64,000 bases of DNA from NCBI RefSeq assembly GCF_001294455.1, contig NZ_LIKT01000002.1:186001-250000 (forward strand), in the 5' to 3' direction. This DNA comes from Phaeobacter sp. 11ANDIMAR09. Its GTDB lineage: Bacteria; Pseudomonadota; Alphaproteobacteria; Rhodobacterales; Rhodobacteraceae. This document shows, in pieces, positions 735-26,162 of the stretch (position 1 is the first letter of the stretch; the number at the start of each line of letters is the position of its first letter). The translations under genes and the position numbers were made by a program. The notes under the pieces were generated by a model, which saw nothing but the letters and a program-made list of their open reading frames with translations, was not told where the DNA came from and searched no databases.

Positions 735-1865
735 CTATGCTCCTGCCAGATCATGGGCAATTTCAACCGCCCGCCGCGCGCCGTCAAACTGAAAGCGGTC
801 GGCGCTGCGGCGCGGAGCGGCGAGCACTTTTTCGACTGCGTCAATCATCCCTTCCGGGGTGAGCTCAGCGGTGCGGAGGGTTTCAAAGCCTGCCAGCGGC
901 GCCAGGCTTTTGGCGCGCAGGCCTTGCTCGACCTCTTTGCCGGCATCAAAGGGGATCAGCACCGCCGGGGTTTCCGCCTGCAGCAGGTCCAGCGCGGTGT
1001 TATAGCCGCACATGCTGACCGAGGCGGCAACATGGGTGAGCATCTGGCGAAAATCGGGACGTGTGGCTTCGAGCCGGGCAGGAGAGTCGACTTGGGACAG
1101 CTGCGCAATTCGAGCCCTGGCATCGCTGCCGCCCACCAACAGGCGCCAGTTGCGACCAGGCATCTGCCGGGCGGCGGCCAGCGCACAGAGGTAGATTTCA
1201 TCCCCGACACTGCCGCCCCCGGCGCTGACAAGGATCTCACCGTGCCCTTCGGAAAGGGGGTGTGGTCCGGCCGCCGCGGGGGCAACAAAGCCGGTGTAAT
1301 GCAGCTTTGCCGCGAGCATCTCAGAGACGGGCCAACTGAGCTCAAGCCGGGTGGCCTGTGGGTCGGAATGAACCAGCACGCCGTCATAGAATTCCGCGAT
1401 CACCCGATCCGCTTTTTCCACCTTTTCCGGCTTGGAGGGCGGCGCCAGAATGTCGCGGATAGAGGCCAATATCTTGGGCGGTTTGGGCTGCGCCTTGGCC
1501 GCGCGCAAAAGGGCGAGAAACTCATGGCGCAGCATGCGGCGGCCAAAGGGGTAGAGCTCGGTGATCAGCACATCGGGGACCAGCTGCTCTAGGGCCTGGC
1601 ACAGCATGGCCTGGCGTTGCTGGAGATAGCTGTCAGTGGTCAATGCGCCCTTTTCATCCAAAAGCTGGGTGAAATTCACCCCATCCGAGCGCAGCGGCGG
1701 CAGCTGCAGCAGGTCAAGTCCGGTGGTGTCGAGCTGTGGGGCCGGGAAGCCGCCGGACAGAATCTGCACCTGGTCACCAGCCTGTTGAAAAGCGCGCCCT
1801 AGGGTCAGTGCCCGCGACAGATGCCCGGTGCCCAGCAGATGCGTGACGACAATCATGACCTTCAT
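735..1865 (-). CDS. MurG/GT28-like glycosyltransferase
   Basis: 376 aa. The N-terminus carries a glycine-rich GTGHLSRAL loop (about residues 12-20) and the C-terminal half has SAGGGSVGDE and CGYNTALDLL followed by PAVLIPF, the layout of GT-B transferases of the MurG/UGT type, where the C-terminal domain binds the nucleotide sugar. It resembles the first gene of the same operon (4769-5995), which has the matching GLGHLRRSRAL and GGYNTFCEVL motifs, so the two are probably paralogues acting on different acceptors. Its ATG overlaps the phosphatase stop by 4 nt (ATGA), which suggests translational coupling. Donor and acceptor cannot be read from the sequence. Confidence 0.8.
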   Translation of the reverse strand: MKVMIVVTHLLGTGHLSRALTLGRAFQQAGDQVQILSGGFPAPQLDTTGLDLLQLPPLRSDGVNFTQLLDEKGALTTDSYLQQRQAMLCQALEQLVPDVLITELYPFGRRMLRHEFLALLRAAKAQPKPPKILASIRDILAPPSKPEKVEKADRVIAEFYDGVLVHSDPQATRLELSWPVSEMLAAKLHYTGFVAPAAAGPHPLSEGHGEILVSAGGGSVGDEIYLCALAAARQMPGRNWRLLVGGSDARARIAQLSQVDSPARLEATRPDFRQMLTHVAASVSMCGYNTALDLLQAETPAVLIPFDAGKEVEQGLRAKSLAPLAGFETLRTAELTPEGMIDAVEKVLAAPRRSADRFQFDGARRAVEIAHDLAGA

Positions 1866-2449
1866 GGCATGTCTCTTTTCAACAGGCGCAGGGGCTCGGT
1901 CCAGGGAGTAAGGCTATCGCCGTCGATTTCGACGACAAACAGACGGTTGCGTTTGATGCGGAACGGCGCGGGTCCGTCAAAATTCCAGTGATAGGCCCGA
2001 GCCAGGATCATTCGCATGATGCCGATATGGCAGACCGCAATGGTGTCATGCTCCAGACTGGCGATCCAGGGTTTGATCCGCGCCCAGACCTCTGCCGGGG
2101 TTTCACCCCCAGGCGGGCGGTAGTCCCAGCCCCACTGTTCGATATCGCGAAAGCCGCTGTTGGGGGTGCCTTTCAGCTCCAGGCCCTTTTTGCCCTCCCA
2201 ATCGCCCCAGAACATCTCTGTGAGGTTTGGCGCGGTTTTAGGAGGCTGGCCTGCAACCAGTTCAGCGGTCTCTACAGCGCGTGACAGCGGGCTGGACCAG
2301 AGCGCGGCCTGATCCCAGGGCCTGGGCAGGGCAAACTGTGCCAGCTCTGCACGGGCGGCGTCATCGAGTGGGATATCGCTGCGGCCCTGGATCTGACCGG
2401 CGCGGTTCCAGGCGGTATGGCCGTGGCGCAAAAGAGCAAGGCGGATCAT
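1862..2449 (-). CDS. Histidine phosphatase family protein (phosphoglycerate mutase-like)
   Basis: 195 aa. The N-terminal LLRHGHTAWN carries the RHG catalytic histidine of the histidine phosphatase superfamily; later CHIGIMRM supplies the second active-site histidine. Members act on small phosphoesters such as sugar phosphates or phosphoglycerate. I take ATG 2449 as the start, because it overlaps the upstream glycosyltransferase stop by ATGA and puts the RHG motif near residue 8; a longer reading frame to 2485 would run 36 nt further into that gene. Its position inside a glycosyltransferase operon suggests it dephosphorylates a sugar intermediate of that pathway, as glucosyl-3-phosphoglycerate phosphatases do elsewhere. 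That link is inference. Confidence 0.82.
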   Translation of the reverse strand: MIRLALLRHGHTAWNRAGQIQGRSDIPLDDAARAELAQFALPRPWDQAALWSSPLSRAVETAELVAGQPPKTAPNLTEMFWGDWEGKKGLELKGTPNSGFRDIEQWGWDYRPPGGETPAEVWARIKPWIASLEHDTIAVCHIGIMRMILARAYHWNFDGPAPFRIKRNRLFVVEIDGDSLTPWTEPLRLLKRDMP

Positions 2450-3534
2450 CGGCTGTCCTCGAGCAAGGGGGTGACAGCGGACCAAAAACGCGCGCTGGCG
2501 GCTGGGGCGAGGTGACGACTGGCAACCCGGTCACGGGCTTCGGTGCCTAGTTTTTGTCGCAGATCAGGGGCTGAAAGCAGCCGGTTCAGCCGCTCTGAGA
2601 GAGCCTCTGCGCCCTGGGTCACTGCGGGGTATTGCCCTGGTGCCAGAACATCTCGCATGCCGGGGCGGTCCTGGGCCACCACGGGCAGCCCGTGGCTTTG
2701 GGCTTCCAGATAGACCATGCCAAAAGCTTCGTTGACGCCGGGCCAGAAGAACAGACTAGCGCTTTCATAGGCTTTGGTTAGTTCCGCGCGCGACAATTGC
2801 CCCAGAAAGGTGACGTGCTGGCCATAGGGGATCATCAAGGCCTCGACCTCCGCTCGGGCCGGGCCGTCCCCGGCGATCTGCAAGTGCCAGTCGCCTTGCA
2901 GCCCTTGCAGGCTATCGGCGATGATCTGATAGGAGGCCAGTTTATCCCCTTGGCGCATCATACCGACGCTTAACATGGGGCCATCCAGAGTGCTGGCCCG
3001 CGGCATGGTGTCCAGCGGCAGAAAGGGAGGCAGGCTGACCAGGGTTTGGTCTGTGTGCTTGTCGCGTTCCAGCGTGATGAGATCATTGGCCGTAAGATAG
3101 AAAATCACCGAGGCCGTATCAGCTGCGTCATGGGCGGATTGAGCAAAGCCAGCCCAGGGGCCAATCAGACGACGCGAAGCCCGAGTGCTTTCGATCTGCA
3201 CATAAGGGATACCACGGGCGCGTGCCACCTGGGGGCCGATCAGATCCGGTGCTTTGTAGTAATTGTGATAGGTCACCCAGAGATCCACGGGCGGCATGTC
3301 TGCGGTCAGTCGACGCACTTCCTGGTCGGCCTTGTCCCGCAGCCGTGACTGGAGCGCGGCATCGCCTGTCTTGTCGAATATCTTCAGCTCGGTCACCAGA
3401 TCGACCTCGGCGCCACCTGTTGCAAGCAGCGCGATCAGGTTGCGGGCCATTTCCCGATCGCCCGAGGGCACCGGATGGCGCGGCGATTTCATCGGCGCAT
3501 AAAAGGCGATCCTTTTGGGGGCCTTGCTGCTCAT
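2446..3534 (-). CDS. Glycosyltransferase family 4 protein
   Basis: 362 aa GT-B fold protein. The C-terminal half has the GT4 pattern: LSVGMMRQGDK near the domain linker, then GVNEAFGMVYLEAQSHGLPVVA with the two glutamates of the E-x7-E donor-binding motif. The N-terminus has PSGDREMARNLIALLATGG, typical of the acceptor-side domain. GT4 enzymes retain anomeric configuration and transfer from nucleotide sugars (some from phospho-sugars). The start ATG overlaps the preceding transferase stop by 4 nt and its own stop overlaps the phosphatase start by 4 nt. No membrane segment is evident, so it is cytoplasmic or peripheral. Confidence 0.85.
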   Translation of the reverse strand: MSSKAPKRIAFYAPMKSPRHPVPSGDREMARNLIALLATGGAEVDLVTELKIFDKTGDAALQSRLRDKADQEVRRLTADMPPVDLWVTYHNYYKAPDLIGPQVARARGIPYVQIESTRASRRLIGPWAGFAQSAHDAADTASVIFYLTANDLITLERDKHTDQTLVSLPPFLPLDTMPRASTLDGPMLSVGMMRQGDKLASYQIIADSLQGLQGDWHLQIAGDGPARAEVEALMIPYGQHVTFLGQLSRAELTKAYESASLFFWPGVNEAFGMVYLEAQSHGLPVVAQDRPGMRDVLAPGQYPAVTQGAEALSERLNRLLSAPDLRQKLGTEARDRVASRHLAPAASARFWSAVTPLLEDSR

Positions 3535-4772
3535 GAGCCCTGCAGCATGGCATCCAGTCGGATCACCAGCTGCGCAATGCCGGGATCCATGCCGAAATCG
3601 CGCCGCAGACGCTCCAGAGCGGCCTCGGCCATCTCCTGCGCCATGTTGGGGTTGCGCGCCAGGGACAGGATCGCATTCGCCAGCGCCTGCGGGTCATCTT
3701 TACTGAGCAACCCATGGGTGCCACTGTCGATGAACTCAGGGATGGCAGAGACCGGCGTCGACAGGATCGGCAGCAATTGCGAAGCCGCCTCCATCAGCAC
3801 ATTGGGCAGGCCGTCACGATCGCCATCCTTTGCGATCCGGCTGGGCAGGACAAAGAGATCAGAGGCGCGCATGGCTTCAATGACCTCAGGCTGATCACAG
3901 GCACCGCGCCAAGTGATGCGTTGGGCGACGCCTGCGTCCTCAGCCATGTCCTGCAGTAGATCATTTAATCCGCCGCCGCCAATATGGGTCCAGTGCCAGT
4001 CAAGATCCTGCGGCAACAGGGCCAAGGCGGCGATCAGCCGGTCAAAACCTTTTTTCTCAACCAAGCGGCCAACGGACATCAGTTTGAGAGGATCCTTTGC
4101 CTGCCGCCAGCTTCGAGAGGGTGGTTCGGGGAAACGGGCCAGATCCAAGCCGTGATAGATCAGGTCAACCGGGGTGCCTTTGGCAAGATCCTGCAGGTGT
4201 TTGGCACCAAAACCTGTGCAGGTTGCGCCAAAATTTGCGCCAAAATGCGCCGCCGAGAGTTTTTCGCGCAGCTCCCATTCTGGGGACGTCCAGATGTCCT
4301 TGGCATGAGCGGAAAAGCTCCAGGGCAGCCCGCGCATGATTGCCGCATAGCGGGCCACGGACGAGGGTGTGTGCAGGAAATGCGCATAAAACCCCAGCAC
4401 TTCGGCGGGGGCTTCGGCGGCCAGCACGCAGGCCTGGCCAAAGCGGCGAATGCGGTTGCGGCTGGGATCACGCGCCAGATCGGCGCGCCAGATACGATAG
4501 GCCTCAGCGTAGCCAGGCAGGGCCTGCGCCGCAGCGCGCGCTGCCCAGACACGGTCAGGTTCCTGATACAGATATTCCGGCAGGTAGCGCACCTTGGCCT
4601 GCAACCTGTCATGCAGCGGATGGCGTTTCACATCGGTGGGATGGCGCAGCGACCAGATCTCGAAACTCTGACCGGCCTCTTCTAGGGCGACCAGCTCCTG
4701 CGCGATAAAGGTCTCGGAGAGCCGGGGCCAGCCTTTGACCAATACCGCAAGGTTAGGATGGTCTTGGCTCAT
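3531..4772 (-). CDS. Glycosyltransferase family 4 protein (colanic-acid/EPS type)
   Basis: 413 aa. Motifs include SFSAHAKDIW and GFGAKHLQDL in the acceptor domain, then MSVGRLVEKKGFDRLI, the usual opening of the GT4 donor domain, and DGLPNVLMEA with conserved acidic residues. The layout resembles WcaL/AmsK-type exopolysaccharide transferases. The open frame runs upstream to 4991, but ATG 4772 is the likely start: it overlaps the stop of the first operon gene as ATGA, and the upstream residues are arginine-rich shadow sequence. With its neighbours this makes four transferases in one operon. Substrates unknown. Confidence 0.85.
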   Translation of the reverse strand: MSQDHPNLAVLVKGWPRLSETFIAQELVALEEAGQSFEIWSLRHPTDVKRHPLHDRLQAKVRYLPEYLYQEPDRVWAARAAAQALPGYAEAYRIWRADLARDPSRNRIRRFGQACVLAAEAPAEVLGFYAHFLHTPSSVARYAAIMRGLPWSFSAHAKDIWTSPEWELREKLSAAHFGANFGATCTGFGAKHLQDLAKGTPVDLIYHGLDLARFPEPPSRSWRQAKDPLKLMSVGRLVEKKGFDRLIAALALLPQDLDWHWTHIGGGGLNDLLQDMAEDAGVAQRITWRGACDQPEVIEAMRASDLFVLPSRIAKDGDRDGLPNVLMEAASQLLPILSTPVSAIPEFIDSGTHGLLSKDDPQALANAILSLARNPNMAQEMAEAALERLRRDFGMDPGIAQLVIRLDAMLQGS

Positions 4773-5995
4773 TCGGCGGCCTTTCTTGGCAGGTCCTGCA
4801 ACAGGGAGGCAACGCGGCGCGTGACGCAGTCGAGCCCGTCGAGCAGGCCTTCGGAGAAGGCCGCTGAGGGGGGCTTTTGTTCGGCCAGAGCGCGGATCGC
4901 TTTGGTCATGGCCTGGGGGGTCCAACCATCGCGTTGCTCGTCCAGCATGGAAACCAGACCCAGCTCTTCGGCGCGGCTGGCGCGGATCCATTGTTCCAGG
5001 CGCGGCGTGGTGCGGGGCACGATGACGGCGGGTTTGTCAAAGGAGAGCACCTCGCAGAAGGTATTGTAGCCGCCCATGCAGACAACGCCCTGTGCCCCTG
5101 AAAACAGGGTCTCGATACGGGATTCAAAGCCGACGGCGGTGACACGCCCATTCAACGCCGCGACGCGGGTTTCAAAAGCTTCACGGGTTTCGCCCGATAG
5201 GAAAGGGCCATAGACCAGAACGGCGCGGGGCGACAGGTTTGGATCCTGCTCATAGGCCGAGAGCACCAGATCCACCATCATGGCGCCATCGCCGCCTCCG
5301 CCGGGGGTGATCAGCACATAGGGCTGCTCGGGCGGATCATCCCAGGCGCCAAGATCGCGCCGCAGATAGCCAGTCCAATACATGCGGTTCTGGGTGGCCT
5401 TGCTGAGGTTGAGCCCCTGGGTCGGATCATAGATTGATGCCAGCCCATAGACCCAGATCTCGTCATAGTAATTCTCGGTGGCCTGGATCGCTTCTTTGCG
5501 GTTCCATTCCGCCGCAAGCACCTCGGGCTCGTCCAGCACATCGCGTAGCCCCAGAACCAGTTTGGTGCGCCCTTCTTCTGTCAGCAGTTTCAGCGTTGGT
5601 AGCAGCTCCCCGCGAAACCCGGTTGGCTCTTTGTCGACGATCAGTACATCGGGGTCATATTGCTCGGCCATTGAGCGGATCAGGCCACTGCGCAATTCGG
5701 TGGTTTCCTCAATGCTCATGCCCATGGTGCGCGAGGCATAGCTGCCGTCGGAACGCTTGATCACGCCGGGCAGGCGCATATGGTCAACCCGGGTGGGAAA
5801 GGCAAAACGCCCCGCCACAGGCGAGCCGGTCAGAATCAAGGCTGAAGCCGAAGGGTCCGCGGCGGTGATCGCACCTGCCAGAGCACGAGAGCGACGCAGG
5901 TGACCCAGCCCGAATGTGTCATGACTGTACAGCATTACCCTGGGGCCGCGTTGATTTTGGTTCCGCTCGCGAGAGAGATCTGTGGTCGATGTCAT
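4769..5995 (-). CDS. MurG-like glycosyltransferase, first gene of glycan operon
   Basis: 408 aa. After a polar N-terminal tail it has YSHDTFGLGHLRRSRAL (about residues 23-39), VLITPGGGGDGAMM at mid-protein and CMGGYNTFCEVLSFDKPAVIVPR near the C-terminus: a GT-B transferase of the MurG/UGT-like kind often annotated only as predicted glycosyl transferase. It begins the leftward operon; the next four genes each overlap the previous one by 4 nt, and the deacetylase follows by 2 nt, so all six are probably made from one message. The divergent neighbour is an MscS channel, so the promoter must lie within 5996-6360. Its partner paralogue is at 735-1865. Confidence 0.8.
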   Translation of the reverse strand: MTSTTDLSRERNQNQRGPRVMLYSHDTFGLGHLRRSRALAGAITAADPSASALILTGSPVAGRFAFPTRVDHMRLPGVIKRSDGSYASRTMGMSIEETTELRSGLIRSMAEQYDPDVLIVDKEPTGFRGELLPTLKLLTEEGRTKLVLGLRDVLDEPEVLAAEWNRKEAIQATENYYDEIWVYGLASIYDPTQGLNLSKATQNRMYWTGYLRRDLGAWDDPPEQPYVLITPGGGGDGAMMVDLVLSAYEQDPNLSPRAVLVYGPFLSGETREAFETRVAALNGRVTAVGFESRIETLFSGAQGVVCMGGYNTFCEVLSFDKPAVIVPRTTPRLEQWIRASRAEELGLVSMLDEQRDGWTPQAMTKAIRALAEQKPPSAAFSEGLLDGLDCVTRRVASLLQDLPRKAAE

Positions 5996-16425: not shown

Positions 16426-16920
16426 ATGATCACGCGATTGGACCTATTTATCGACCGTATGGTGTCGCAGCGCGCTTGCCTGGATTTTGGCATCGCCCAG
16501 ACCGCAGGGATGTCGGGGCCAGTGTTCGAGCTGGGGCTGGGCAATGGCCGCACCTATCACCACATGAAACACAATGTCATCGGACGCGATCTCTATGTAT
16601 TTGAACGGGCCGTGGCCTCGCATCCAGACAGCACTCCGCCCGAGGAGTTGACCATTCTGGGTGATGTGCGCGAGACCTTGCCAGCCGCGCTGGGGCGCTT
16701 TGGTGCCACTGCGAGCCTGATCCATGCGGATCTTGGCGGCCACAACCGGGCCAAGAACGATGCCTTTGCCCGGCTGATTTCACCTCTGGTCGAGCCACTG
16801 CTGGCAGTTGGCGGGCTGATGGTTTCCTCTGACCGGATGTATTTTGAGGGGCTTACCGAAATGCCCTTGCCTCCAGAGGCCGTTGAGGGACGCTGCTTTA
16901 TCTATCGCCGCGAGGGTTAA
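16426..16920 (+). CDS. Class I SAM-dependent methyltransferase-like protein
   Basis: 164 aa. FELGLGNGRTYHHM (about residues 34-47) matches the glycine-rich SAM-binding loop, followed by RDLYVFERA with an acidic residue after strand 2 and IHADLGGHN as a motif-IV-like strand. The substrate-binding part is short, so the target may be a small molecule, or the protein may be a conserved family of unassigned function. ATG 16426 has AAAGGAGAG at ideal spacing; an earlier frame start at 16399 lacks this. It stands alone, in front of a GST gene. Confidence 0.65.
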   Translation: MITRLDLFIDRMVSQRACLDFGIAQTAGMSGPVFELGLGNGRTYHHMKHNVIGRDLYVFERAVASHPDSTPPEELTILGDVRETLPAALGRFGATASLIHADLGGHNRAKNDAFARLISPLVEPLLAVGGLMVSSDRMYFEGLTEMPLPPEAVEGRCFIYRREG

Positions 16921-22566: not shown

Positions 22567-22992
22567 TTAGCAGGCGAAGCACTTAACCCAGGCGGCAGTC
22601 ATGGCGATATAGCTGAGCTGATGCAGGCATTGATCGGTTCCCATGGCGCGCCAAAAGGAGGCTTGCTGCGGGTTGAGATCTTTCTTTTCGGAGTAATGCG
22701 CCTTGCCGTAATCAATATGGAAATGCACCACCCACTCCAGGAAGCAGATCAGCAGAATAAAGCCGACCGAGGCCCCCATCAGGACGAAGACCACAACGGA
22801 AAACAGCGCGTGAACACCGGCGTGTTGCGCGCGCCCGGCGTGCAGGTATTCGTCCCGGCCTGACAGCATTTTGGGGGTCTGCAAAAAGAAGTCGGCAAAA
22901 AGATGTTTGATCTGCAAAAGGCAGAGCAAAATCAACACGGATCCGACAAGTCCTGGCAAAGGCATTCCCCTGATATCAATACCCGAAACCAT
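22567..22992 (-). CDS. DUF3307-like small membrane protein
   Basis: About 141 aa, strongly hydrophobic. LVGSVLILLCLLQIKHLFADFFLQT carries the HLFADF pattern of DUF3307 proteins, followed by HAGVHALFSVVVFVLMG, a second membrane stretch with FLEWVVHFHIDYGK, and a C-terminal hydrophobic helix. Function of the family is not known. Start is uncertain: ATG 22992 and ATG 22965 (AGGGGA directly before) are both possible, and the frame is open to 23061. It is convergent with the Lrp-type gene. Confidence 0.65.
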   Translation of the reverse strand: MVSGIDIRGMPLPGLVGSVLILLCLLQIKHLFADFFLQTPKMLSGRDEYLHAGRAQHAGVHALFSVVVFVLMGASVGFILLICFLEWVVHFHIDYGKAHYSEKKDLNPQQASFWRAMGTDQCLHQLSYIAMTAAWVKCFAC

Positions 22993-23153
22993 ACGGGTTT
23001 TTCTCTGGCTGGCAAATACTGTGTAGCAGGGATGCCGTAACGGGACAGTGAACTTCATCACATGCGGGCAGGTGTTCAGCCATTGCCTGTCAGGTGCAAA
23101 CCGCGCTAGGCATAGGGCATCTGTTTTGCTGCAGCCAAAGTTGGAGCTCTCCC

Positions 23154-26100
23154 ATAGAACCTTCTCTGTTTCGTTTTATCTGGAAATATTCCAAACGCGA
23201 CCAAGTTGTTCTGCTGTTGGTCACTGCCTGTCTGTTCCCACTGCTGTATCTGACGTTGGAATTGCCCAAACGGATCATCAATGACGCCATTGGGGCGCAG
23301 AGTGATCGTATTGAACTATTTGGCTACTCAGTCGAAAAGCTTGATTACCTGTGGATTCTTTGTGCTGGTTTTCTGGTTGCAGTTCTGGCGCATGGCCTGC
23401 TGAAGATGCGTATCAATACCATGAAGGGGGTGCTGGCCGAGCGCATGTTGCGGCGCTTTCGCTATCAGATGATCGCGCGGGTTTTGCGCTTTCCGCAGCC
23501 CTATTTCGAGCGGGTCAGCCAGGGGGAGCTGGTCTCGATGATCACCTCTGAGAGCGAGCCGATGGGAGGCTTGATGGGGGATGCGGTCAGCCAGCCGGTG
23601 CTGCAAGCCGGACAGATGCTGACTATCCTGTTTTTCCTCTTTACCCAAAGCCCCTGGTTTGGGTTGGCTGCGGTGGCGTTGATCCCTTTGCAGGGCTGGT
23701 TGATCCCGATGTTGCAGCGCCAGATAAACCTGTTGAACAAGACCCGCATTCATCAAGTGCGGGCGCTTGCTTCAGAGATCGGTGAAAGCGCTGCGGGCGC
23801 TGCGACCCTGCGCATCAATGGCGGCTGGCGCTACCGGATGGCGGTGATCACGGACAGGCTGGGGCGGCTTTACGATATCCGGTTTCAGATCTACCAGAAA
23901 AAGTTCTTCATGAAGTTCCTCAACAACTTCATCACCAATCTAACGCCCTTTTTCTTTTATGCCGTTGGCGGCTATCTGGTGCTTCAGGGAGAAGTCTCGC
24001 TTGGGGCGCTGGTGGCGGCACTGGCCGCCTACAAAGATCTTGCCTCACCCTGGAAAGAACTGCTGGCCTACTACAATCAAACCCAGGATATGGCCCTGCG
24101 CTGGGATGTGATCCTCGAGCGCTTTGCCCCCACAGGCATGGTCCGTGAAGAGCTGATGTCTGGCGAACCAGAAGAGCTGGTGCATCTAAAGGGCGATGTG
24201 ACGCTCAAATCGGTCAATGTGCGGGATGCAGATGGTAATCTGGTGCTGGAAGATCTGAATGCAAACCTGCCTGCGGGGCAGGTCATTGGCATTGCTGCGC
24301 CCTCTGAAGAAGACAGGCGTGCGATGGCGGAGCTACTGACACGTGAGGTTCTGCCCTCGGCCGGGCAGGTAACGATCTCCGGTCAGGATCTGCGCGATCT
24401 GCATCAGGCGGTTCTGGCGCTGCGGATTGGCCATGTGACCTCGCGCCCGGTGCTGTTTCAGGGATCTTTTGGCGACAACGTGATGATGCCGATGCGTCAT
24501 CGCCCCAAGGGCAGCGCCCAAGACGCGGCGCGCTTTCTGGCGGCGCAGCAGGCCGGCAACAGCTCGGACCCCTATGATGCGCCCTGGCTGGACCCGGCGC
24601 TTGCGGGGTTTGCCAGCGAGCACGATCTGCGCGATTGGTGGGTGCAGTTGCTGGCCGGGATCGGCACCGACAGTGCCTTGTTCCGGCGGGGCATGGAGCA
24701 GAGCTTTGACAGCATGCAGCATCCGCGCCTGGCGCAAAGCCTGGTAGATCTACGTCCCAAAGTGCGCGCCGCTGTGATTGATGCGGATCTGGGCAGCCAG
24801 GTCCACGGCTTGGCTCGGGATGAATATAACCCGGCCCTGCCTGTGGCGGAAAACCTGCTCTATGCAACGCTTCGCGCCCCGGTCTCCGAGGATATGCTGC
24901 GCGAACATGTGGATTTTCTGGACCGCTTGCGCGAGCTGAAACTGGTTGACGATTTGGTGACCTTGACGCAGGACGTGGTGGATATCCTGCGGCAGATTTT
25001 TGGCATGGATGGCACGGATCATCCGCTTTTTCGCAAGCTGGGCCTTGACCCCAAAGCCTATGAGCGCGCCTCCGCGCTGGTCGACAAGACGCGGAGCAAG
25101 GGGGCTGAGGTTCTGGAGCACGATGAGCTGGCGCAATTGATGGTAGTGCCCTTCAGCATCTCGGCCGAACAGATTGGCCCGGCTTTCACGGATGAGATGA
25201 AAGCGCGTATTCTCGCCTTCCGCAAGAGCCATGCAGATGAGCTATTGGGCACCCTGTCGGATGTTTTTGTCAGGCTGGATGAAGCAGAATTCGCCCCCGG
25301 GTTGACCGTGTTGGAAAACGCGTTGTTCGGCAAGATTTCGGACAGCTCCGGCGCGCGTGGGGATGAACTGCGGCGCTTGGTGTCGCAGGTTTTGATCGAC
25401 AATGGCGCCCGGGACATGGTGGTCGAGCTGATCTTTGATCTGCCGATTGCTTTGGGGGGGCAGGGCTTGCCTGCCAGCTATGCCGAGCCACTGGCTTTTG
25501 CCCGTGCGACGATCAAGCGCCCCGATATCCTGCTCTTGGATTCGGCTTTCTCCAGCTATGATCTGGAGACACGGATCGCAGTGCACAAGAACCTGCGCCG
25601 CCTCTTGCCCGAGACCACGCTGGTCTATCTGGAGGCGACTTTCGAGCGGGCAGATGTTTTTGACGCCTTTTACGAGCTGCGCCAGGGCAGGCTGGTCAGT
25701 GATGATCCCCATGAAACAGTGGCCGAAGACAGCGCCGCAAGCCAGGATCTGGCCCGTAAGCTGCGGGCCTTGGAGCAGACCGAACTGTTTTCCGGCTTGA
25801 ACCGACGGCAGCTGCGGCTGCTGGCCTTTGGGGCGCGCTGGTATTCGGCCCAGGCCGGGGATGCGGTGTTTCTCAAGGATGATGTTGCCAGCGATGGTGT
25901 CTATATGATCCTCGAGGGCGAGGCCGGGCTGTTCTTGCCGCAAGACGGTCGGGAGGATCGCAGAATCACTTCGGTTGGACCGGGCAAGCTGGTGGGTGAG
26001 CTGGGGCTCATCCGCAAGGAGCCACGGGCGTTGAGCATGATCGCTGAGAGCGAATTGACCTGCCTGCGGATTGGTGAGGAGGAGTTCCTGGCCGTGGTCG

Positions 26101-26162
26101 AAAATGATGCAAATACGGCCTTTAAGCTGCTGCAGGTGGTGTCCGGCTACGTCGGGAACTGA
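23154..26162 (+). CDS. ABC exporter-like protein with degenerate, expanded ATPase and C-terminal cyclic nucleotide-binding domain
   Basis: About 1002 aa. Residues 1-320 form an ABC exporter membrane domain (six helices; the loop IGESAAGAATLRINGGWRYRM matches the family). The nucleotide domain is odd: the Walker A position reads GIAAPSEEDRRA with no G-K-S/T, the signature is LGGQGLPAS (about 767), and Walker B LLLLDSAFSS lacks the catalytic Glu. About 300 residues lie between the Q-loop region and the signature. The C-terminus (about 878-1001) is a CRP-like domain with GDAVFLKDDVASDGVYMILEGEAGLFL and GKLVGELGLI. ATP hydrolysis looks unlikely; gating by cyclic nucleotide is a guess. The start is taken as ATA 23154 with GGAG 7 nt before; GTG 23094 is the other option. 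Confidence 0.75.
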   Translation: MEPSLFRFIWKYSKRDQVVLLLVTACLFPLLYLTLELPKRIINDAIGAQSDRIELFGYSVEKLDYLWILCAGFLVAVLAHGLLKMRINTMKGVLAERMLRRFRYQMIARVLRFPQPYFERVSQGELVSMITSESEPMGGLMGDAVSQPVLQAGQMLTILFFLFTQSPWFGLAAVALIPLQGWLIPMLQRQINLLNKTRIHQVRALASEIGESAAGAATLRINGGWRYRMAVITDRLGRLYDIRFQIYQKKFFMKFLNNFITNLTPFFFYAVGGYLVLQGEVSLGALVAALAAYKDLASPWKELLAYYNQTQDMALRWDVILERFAPTGMVREELMSGEPEELVHLKGDVTLKSVNVRDADGNLVLEDLNANLPAGQVIGIAAPSEEDRRAMAELLTREVLPSAGQVTISGQDLRDLHQAVLALRIGHVTSRPVLFQGSFGDNVMMPMRHRPKGSAQDAARFLAAQQAGNSSDPYDAPWLDPALAGFASEHDLRDWWVQLLAGIGTDSALFRRGMEQSFDSMQHPRLAQSLVDLRPKVRAAVIDADLGSQVHGLARDEYNPALPVAENLLYATLRAPVSEDMLREHVDFLDRLRELKLVDDLVTLTQDVVDILRQIFGMDGTDHPLFRKLGLDPKAYERASALVDKTRSKGAEVLEHDELAQLMVVPFSISAEQIGPAFTDEMKARILAFRKSHADELLGTLSDVFVRLDEAEFAPGLTVLENALFGKISDSSGARGDELRRLVSQVLIDNGARDMVVELIFDLPIALGGQGLPASYAEPLAFARATIKRPDILLLDSAFSSYDLETRIAVHKNLRRLLPETTLVYLEATFERADVFDAFYELRQGRLVSDDPHETVAEDSAASQDLARKLRALEQTELFSGLNRRQLRLLAFGARWYSAQAGDAVFLKDDVASDGVYMILEGEAGLFLPQDGREDRRITSVGPGKLVGELGLIRKEPRALSMIAESELTCLRIGEEEFLAVVENDANTAFKLLQVVSGYVGN

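Follow-up and report, generated by a model that had tools for sequence, protein, structure and literature searches.

The closest described relatives of the protein considered here each share a part of its architecture. In ABCG5/G8, a lysine of the Walker A motif is changed to arginine, according to the accessible part of the source (PMC7756269). The cyclic nucleotide-binding-type (cNMP-type) domain of HetC from Nostoc binds guanosine tetraphosphate (ppGpp) in vitro, and its presence is needed in vivo, as reported in the accessible part of that study (PMC10986499). We describe here P0001, a protein encoded in a stretch of 64,000 nucleotides (the window) of Phaeobacter sp. 11ANDIMAR09 (contig NZ_LIKT01000002.1, positions 186,001 to 250,000), which resembles an ATP-binding cassette (ABC) exporter, has lost its ATP motifs and carries a duplicated insert and a C-terminal cNMP domain. 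Our results favor, with a probability of roughly 0.55, the notion that P0001 is an ATPase-dead, probably cyclic nucleotide-responsive membrane component of an undescribed glycan system, acting as a gate or platform and not as a pump. A search by title and abstract of the open-licence PubMed Central (PMC) literature found no published description of the P0001 family or of the glycan locus.

Domain make-up, lost ATP motifs and duplicated insert

P0001 is an open frame of 1002 amino acids, counted from the codon ATA at position 23154 of the window. Its parts are the following:

23154..26162, plus strand: P0001 (A-type), ABC-exporter-like, ATP motifs lost, duplicated insert, C-terminal cNMP domain
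23154..23156, plus strand: probable non-canonical start codon ATA, with GGAG 7 bases upstream
23271..24023, plus strand: transmembrane domain, residues 40-290, Pfam ABC_membrane (PF00664), E 2.6e-19
24288..24347, plus strand: former Walker A stretch, residues 379-398, with R388 at the lysine position
24405..24788, plus strand: repeat unit 1, residues 418-545, from the former Q-loop onwards (membership suggestive only)
24789..25253, plus strand: repeat unit 2, residues 546-700 (inserted)
25254..25523, plus strand: repeat unit 3, residues 701-790, extending into LPASY (772-776), the former signature
25539..25547, plus strand: former end of Walker B, D796-S797-A798, lacking the catalytic Glu
25851..26108, plus strand: cyclic nucleotide-binding domain, residues 900-985, Pfam cNMP_binding, E 6.9e-15, E949 and R958 kept

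The membrane domain is of the exporter type both by Pfam and by Foldseek similarity to PCAT1, Atm1 and ABCB1, and the relatives of P0001 among solved structures are ABC exporters that align before and after the insert (best 7qkr, E 9e-30). Among NCBIfam models the best is MsbA, with 132 bits, far under its cut-off of 602. The Pfam scan of P0001 returned ABC_membrane, cNMP_binding and a weak, sub-threshold ABC_tran match (22.6 bits, cut-off 25), with no ion-channel pore domain, as a voltage-type cyclic nucleotide-gated channel would have, and no peptidase such as the C39 domain of the HetC type. An AlphaFold2 monomer built from 51 sequences had a mean predicted local distance difference test score (pLDDT) of 76.9 and a predicted template modelling score (pTM) of 0.63; compared with the PDB by Foldseek, it matched ABC exporters, the best being PCAT1 (8vox, E 6e-13, query template modelling score 0.32). 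A helix of this model would begin at residue 385, inside the expected phosphate loop, which is a weak hint.

The GTDB genome scan gave 458 stretches that encode a relative of P0001, the best 80 of which form the orthologue set; these are mostly from Rhodobacteraceae genera and share 66-93% identity with P0001. Motif counts given for 80 sequences refer to the window and 79 orthologues (L053, cut by a contig end, is left out), and region conservation and substitution rates to 78 sequences (L053, L062 and L071 left out). The orthologue L062, from a metagenome assembly, has a broken reading frame. Another locus (L018), at 75% identity, lies on a contig that bears the name Nocardioides marinus; the assembly is probably contaminated or wrongly labelled.

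The A-loop, Walker A, Q-loop, signature, Walker B Glu and H-loop positions are all changed in P0001. Where G....GK[S/T] is expected, P0001 has A382-PSEE-D387-R388-R389, its R388 aligning with the lysine. D387, R388, R397 and E398 are each invariant (80/80), A382 is Ala in 79/80 and R389 is Arg in 74/80; S430 and P432 of the former Q-loop are likewise invariant in the 80 sequences, as is D358, which we read as the A-loop position, in 78. The Asp-Glu pair of Walker B is present in none of the 80 sequences, and the residue at position 797 varies among ten (Ser 22, Asn 19, Gln 11, down to Glu 1), with one gap. The original prediction, made from the window alone, had named the intact membrane domain, the replaced Walker A, the Walker B lacking Glu and a C-terminal CRP-like domain, all of which are borne out. 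It had also read the signature as LGGQGLPAS, which has to be corrected: LSGGQ aligns with LPASY at 772-776 (commonest among the 80 sequences LPAVF, 28, and LAASF, 12), and LGGQ stands just before it.

This loss is fixed, as the alignment check that the prediction had called for demonstrates with D387-R388 in 80/80. The mean fraction of the majority residue is 0.92 at residues 379-398, 0.76 at 341-430, 0.71 at 447-700 and 0.88 in the membrane domain, so that no part of the nucleotide domain is better conserved than the former Walker A stretch. Non-synonymous rates (dN) are well under synonymous rates (dS) in the larger regions with usable dS, and dN is near dS in 2/6 comparisons of the 13-codon Walker B/D-loop segment; these values are rough, dS being saturated or undefined in many cells. 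Since Walker A and the Q-loop are held fast while Walker B drifts, the sequences present the pattern of an old ATP site put to a use different from hydrolysis. That one copy alone has decayed was ruled out, the altered Walker A residues being fixed in 80/80.

The cNMP domain is conserved as well: E949 and R958, which we take to be its phosphate-binding Glu and Arg, occur in 79/79 sequences with a letter there, and 54/136 of its positions are invariant, as are 171/330 positions of the membrane domain (78 sequences). This motif suggests that the C-terminal domain may bind a nucleotide. The genome has six matches to the cyclase family PF00211.

The insert covers about residues 447-700. The extra segment that the prediction had put at about 300 residues is thus real, with an extent of about 255 residues. 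The prediction had also seen three repeated segments in this part of the protein. Using hhalign, we compared profiles of segments from A-, B- and class-type proteins aligned together, with three reference sequences. Unit 2 matched unit 3 with a probability of 98 and an E-value of about 1e-13 with each reference, and unit 1 matched unit 2 or 3 with probabilities of 33-56 (E 1e-4 to 4.4e-4). The twelve control pairs per reference stayed at probabilities of at most 2.5 (E at least 0.018), the cNMP control segment being uninformative, at only 10-11 residues, for two references. The duplication therefore stands firm for units 2 and 3 and is suggestive, or likely, for unit 1. Modelled alone from 33 sequences (pLDDT 75.4, pTM 0.73), the insert had no significant PDB match (best E 0.62).

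The family and its tie to a glycan locus

P0001 represents, on its sequence relationships, the Rhodobacterales branch of an alphaproteobacterial family. The insert profile, searched at E 1e-3, matched 42/149 genomes of the order sample and 94/289 of the class sample; a wider profile matched 25/299 genomes of the phylum sample, all of the same family or class, in a sample whose share of other classes is not stated. In the FastTree tree, the 12 A-type proteins group with support 0.98, the 11 B-type proteins with 1.0 and both types together with 0.98. The A+B group is joined with two further fused proteins (L121, L100; support 1.0), and a fused protein placed elsewhere (L116) may reflect a second fusion event. 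Three cut proteins (L099, L104, L109) and the window's own copy (L081) were left out of motif counts, repeat comparison and tree. A complete GxxxxGK[S/T] is found in 0/12 A-type and 0/11 B-type proteins, and an Asp-Glu pair likewise in 0/12 and 0/11.

Full-length relatives from the class outside the order (n=24) carry Lys or Arg at the Walker A lysine in 24/24, Asp or Glu at the Ser/Thr position in 21/24 and the Walker B Glu in 14/24; the Asp-Glu pair is seen in 3/24. They keep more residues of the ATP site, so the insert is also common to proteins in which this site is less lost. Homologues with normal Walker A and B, which the prediction had set against its own reading, are therefore partly present: the class relatives come closer (GK[D/E]), the motif is complete in 2/24, and the Rhodobacterales stretch is fixed.

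This genome (G000) has two family matches, one A and one B copy, and B is also devoid of ATP motifs. An obligate A/B pair is unlikely, as 16/42 order genomes have a single family match. A heterodimer with an intact family partner is unsupported, since both members here are without motifs; unrelated ABC partners were not sought. The B copy and the genes around P0001 are listed here, with the contig location given for genes outside the window:

G000:C5:137500-147500: region of the B-type paralogue (L120), which overlaps the start of a CPBP-type protease gene
22567-23061, minus strand: divergent DUF3307 gene adjoining P0001, in the same arrangement in 78/80 loci
735..1865, minus strand: GT28-type glycosyltransferase b
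1862..2449, minus strand: histidine phosphatase of the glycan operon
2446..3534, minus strand: GT4-type glycosyltransferase b
3531..4772, minus strand: GT4-type glycosyltransferase a, its start placed at the ATG that gives a 4-base overlap with the next gene
4769..5995, minus strand: GT28-type glycosyltransferase a (GT28a), whose relatives are the co-occurrence marker
16426..16920, plus strand: Methyltransf_17 S-adenosylmethionine (SAM) methyltransferase, whose relatives follow the ABC and cNMP genes in the class layout

The genes after paralogue B and the protease gene we take to be accD and folC, names given from the look of their sequences. A second Methyltransf_17 copy adjoins the glycan operon just left of the window (G000:C2:185486-185959).

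The five glycan genes at 735-5995 overlap by four bases at each junction. By Pfam, the four window glycosyltransferases have glycosyltransferase domains, weak stray matches and no membrane domain; no membrane-helix prediction was made. We compared 20 class stretches of 10.8-14 kb, from 20 of the 94 matching genomes and mostly among the best matches. In 17/20, a cNMP gene of its own follows downstream on the same strand; it is fused in 2/20 and missing in 1/20; all five divergent glycan genes (GT28, GT4, GT4, histidine phosphatase, GT28) are present in 12/20 and the methyltransferase in 12/20. The GT28/histidine phosphatase/GT4/GT4/GT28 set and Methyltransf_17 were thus found to be linked to, or co-inherited with, the family.

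Co-occurrence was examined for GT28a (order and class; search threshold 1e-20) and for Methyltransf_17 (order), with Fisher p-values that ignore shared ancestry. Strong GT28a matches (query L137, at least 374 bits) occur in exactly the 42/149 order genomes that have the family; the other 107 have none above 206 bits, with weak matches in five. In the class, the family and GT28a each occur in 94/289 genomes, 87 of which are shared. Methyltransf_17 is above its cut-off in 36/149 order genomes, all within the 42. Among 32 A-type genomes, the gene lies 18-37 kb from GT28a in 15. Such co-inheritance without adjacency argues for a shared function of the P0001 family and GT28a, and the tie to glycosyltransferases, which appears to be new here, favors a glycan-linked membrane component over a sensor that stands alone. 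As to the constant neighbours that the prediction had proposed to look for, the DUF3307 gene qualifies, and the glycan operon is co-inherited and not always adjacent.

The start codon and infC

The N-terminal codon of the 80 sequences is ATA in 63, ATC in 15 and ATG in 2, preceded by G at -11 in 80/80 and at -10 in 77/80; elsewhere in these frames ATA makes up 143/4121 Ile codons (3.5%). An in-frame ATG, GTG or TTG lies between this codon and the upstream stop in 30 of the 78 ATA/ATC sequences, the window included, so an upstream canonical start would be compatible with the frame in these 30; the other 48 have none. The upstream GTG of the window, at 23094, has a counterpart at the same place only in L002 and L049. 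The aligned start residue is encoded by ATG in 11/11 B-type proteins and in 17/19 other relatives (L093-L119, L130), the other two being GTG (L097) and CTC (L101).

In Rhodobacterales infC, which encodes initiation factor 3 (IF3), the start is ATA in 28/30 and ATC in 1/30, with one unresolved (L190); these loci (L134, L165-L193) come from 31 genomes searched, one of which had no locus. The simplest reading would be that the P0001 gene and infC both start at AUA, with the protein held at a low level that IF3 tunes. For ccpN and citZ of Staphylococcus aureus, reporters with AUA reached about 10% of the AUG output in poor medium, according to the accessible part of that study (PMC13009471). A study of N termini in R. 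pomeroyi counted ATG, GTG and TTG starts, its accessible part being without mention of 'ATA' (PMC3305630).

Weighing the readings and comparison with described systems

The system that we propose would comprise a GT28 glycosyltransferase, a histidine phosphatase, two GT4 glycosyltransferases, a second GT28 enzyme, a SAM methyltransferase, a cyclic-nucleotide protein and an ABC-like protein. In the Rhodobacterales branch, the last two are fused and the nucleotide domain is without its ATP-handling motifs. The membrane domain probably still handles a glycan or glycolipid, and the rebuilt nucleotide domain, in which helical units are duplicated, might serve as a coupling and docking body. Binding of a cyclic nucleotide would then be passed to the membrane domain, giving a ligand-controlled gate or an assembly platform, while the AUA start appears to hold output low, as for infC, presumably under the control of IF3. 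The narrower version, in which an exporter that no longer uses ATP became a cyclic nucleotide-gated glycan conduit or flippase with an AUA start and infC-like IF3 control, is advanced tentatively.

Several observations weigh against a glycan-linked gate or platform. In the class, seven genomes carry the family but lack the marker and another seven carry the marker but lack the family, 5/20 class stretches (L141, L146, L150, L151, L153) have no glycan gene, and 6/42 order genomes lack Methyltransf_17 above the cut-off; among the 32 A-type genomes, the gene is far from GT28a on one contig in 6 and on another contig in 11. The structural model is a monomer of moderate confidence, and taking the best 80 of 458 favors close kin in the conservation counts. 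Moreover, motif loss does not prove loss of ATP binding, as R388 could still touch a phosphate, and the glycan substrate is itself deduced from the gene context, so that export, flipping and scaffolding are not told apart.

The best-placed alternative, less probable than the gate or platform and partly overlapping with it, is a pure scaffold: P0001 would transport nothing and would anchor soluble glycosyltransferases and the methyltransferase at the membrane, switched by a cyclic nucleotide. The lack of ATP motifs fits this, as do the four glycosyltransferases without a Pfam membrane domain (again with no membrane-helix prediction) and an insert without a significant PDB match (best E 0.62), which could be a docking surface; the 171/330 invariant positions of the membrane domain go beyond the expected need of an anchor. 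It is rather doubtful that P0001 is still an ATP-driven exporter, pairing with an ABC protein that has intact sites or rebuilding a site from other residues. Class relatives do keep the Walker A Lys/Arg (24/24) and often the Walker B Glu (14/24), and exporters with one degenerate site work with an intact partner site, as described in the accessible part of PMC7756269. However, six motif positions from the A-loop to the H-loop are changed in P0001, paralogue B, the sole other family match in the genome, is also without motifs, and with a single match in 16/42 order genomes a family partner is not always there; the search for partners covered the family only.

That P0001 is a ligand-gated channel or sensor that stands apart from the glycan genes, which is the idea of the prediction in its general form, is highly improbable: the fused cNMP domain with E949 and R958, the divergent DUF3307 gene flanking 78/80 loci and the position of P0001 outside the glycan operon here would suit it, but the family occupies the same 42/149 order genomes as GT28a even where the genes are far apart. 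A decaying pseudogene is scarcely credible, because the altered ATP motifs, the variable position 797 (ten residues and one gap), the Walker B/D-loop segment with dN near dS in 2/6 comparisons and the broken frame of L062 are outweighed by open frames in the other full-length orthologues examined, by purifying selection with dN well under dS in the larger usable regions and by the old Walker A stretch being the best-conserved part of the nucleotide domain.

If the gate-or-platform reading is true, dozens of species have retained an exporter fold whose motor was lost, and the motor domain has been rebuilt by duplication and placed beside a second-messenger domain. P0001 would allow a clean test of the capabilities left to an ABC membrane domain without ATP, and may show how a pump turns into a signal-controlled gate or scaffold. 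It would also open an uncharacterised glycan system in many Alphaproteobacteria, given the family in 94/289 sampled class genomes, and add one more conserved gene to those started at AUA, which to our knowledge form a short list so far.

To conclude, P0001 has its membrane domain and overall architecture in common with the type I ABC exporters MsbA, PCAT1, Atm1, ABCB1 and TmrAB, and differs from them by the lost ATP motifs, the insert of about 255 residues with its duplication and the C-terminal cNMP domain; lacking the defining ATP features, it should not be counted among the functional ABC exporters. TM287/288, TmrAB, TAP and CFTR, with one degenerate site, have a changed Walker A, signature and Walker B as in P0001, but in these exporters the other site is active and drives transport, as the accessible part of the source describes (PMC7756269), and in this genome both family members are without an intact site. 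The Nostoc protein HetC is, like P0001, an ABC exporter fused to a cNMP-type domain; in contrast, by the accessible part of that study, its cNMP domain is N-terminal, it carries a peptidase and its catalytic ATPase residue is essential, none of which holds for P0001 (PMC10986499). Finally, infC, ccpN and citZ of S. aureus combine AUA with a Shine-Dalgarno motif, as at P0001, in the accessible part of PMC13009471; unlike these genes, P0001 encodes a large alphaproteobacterial membrane protein, and its AUA start is a probable one, read from the sequence.

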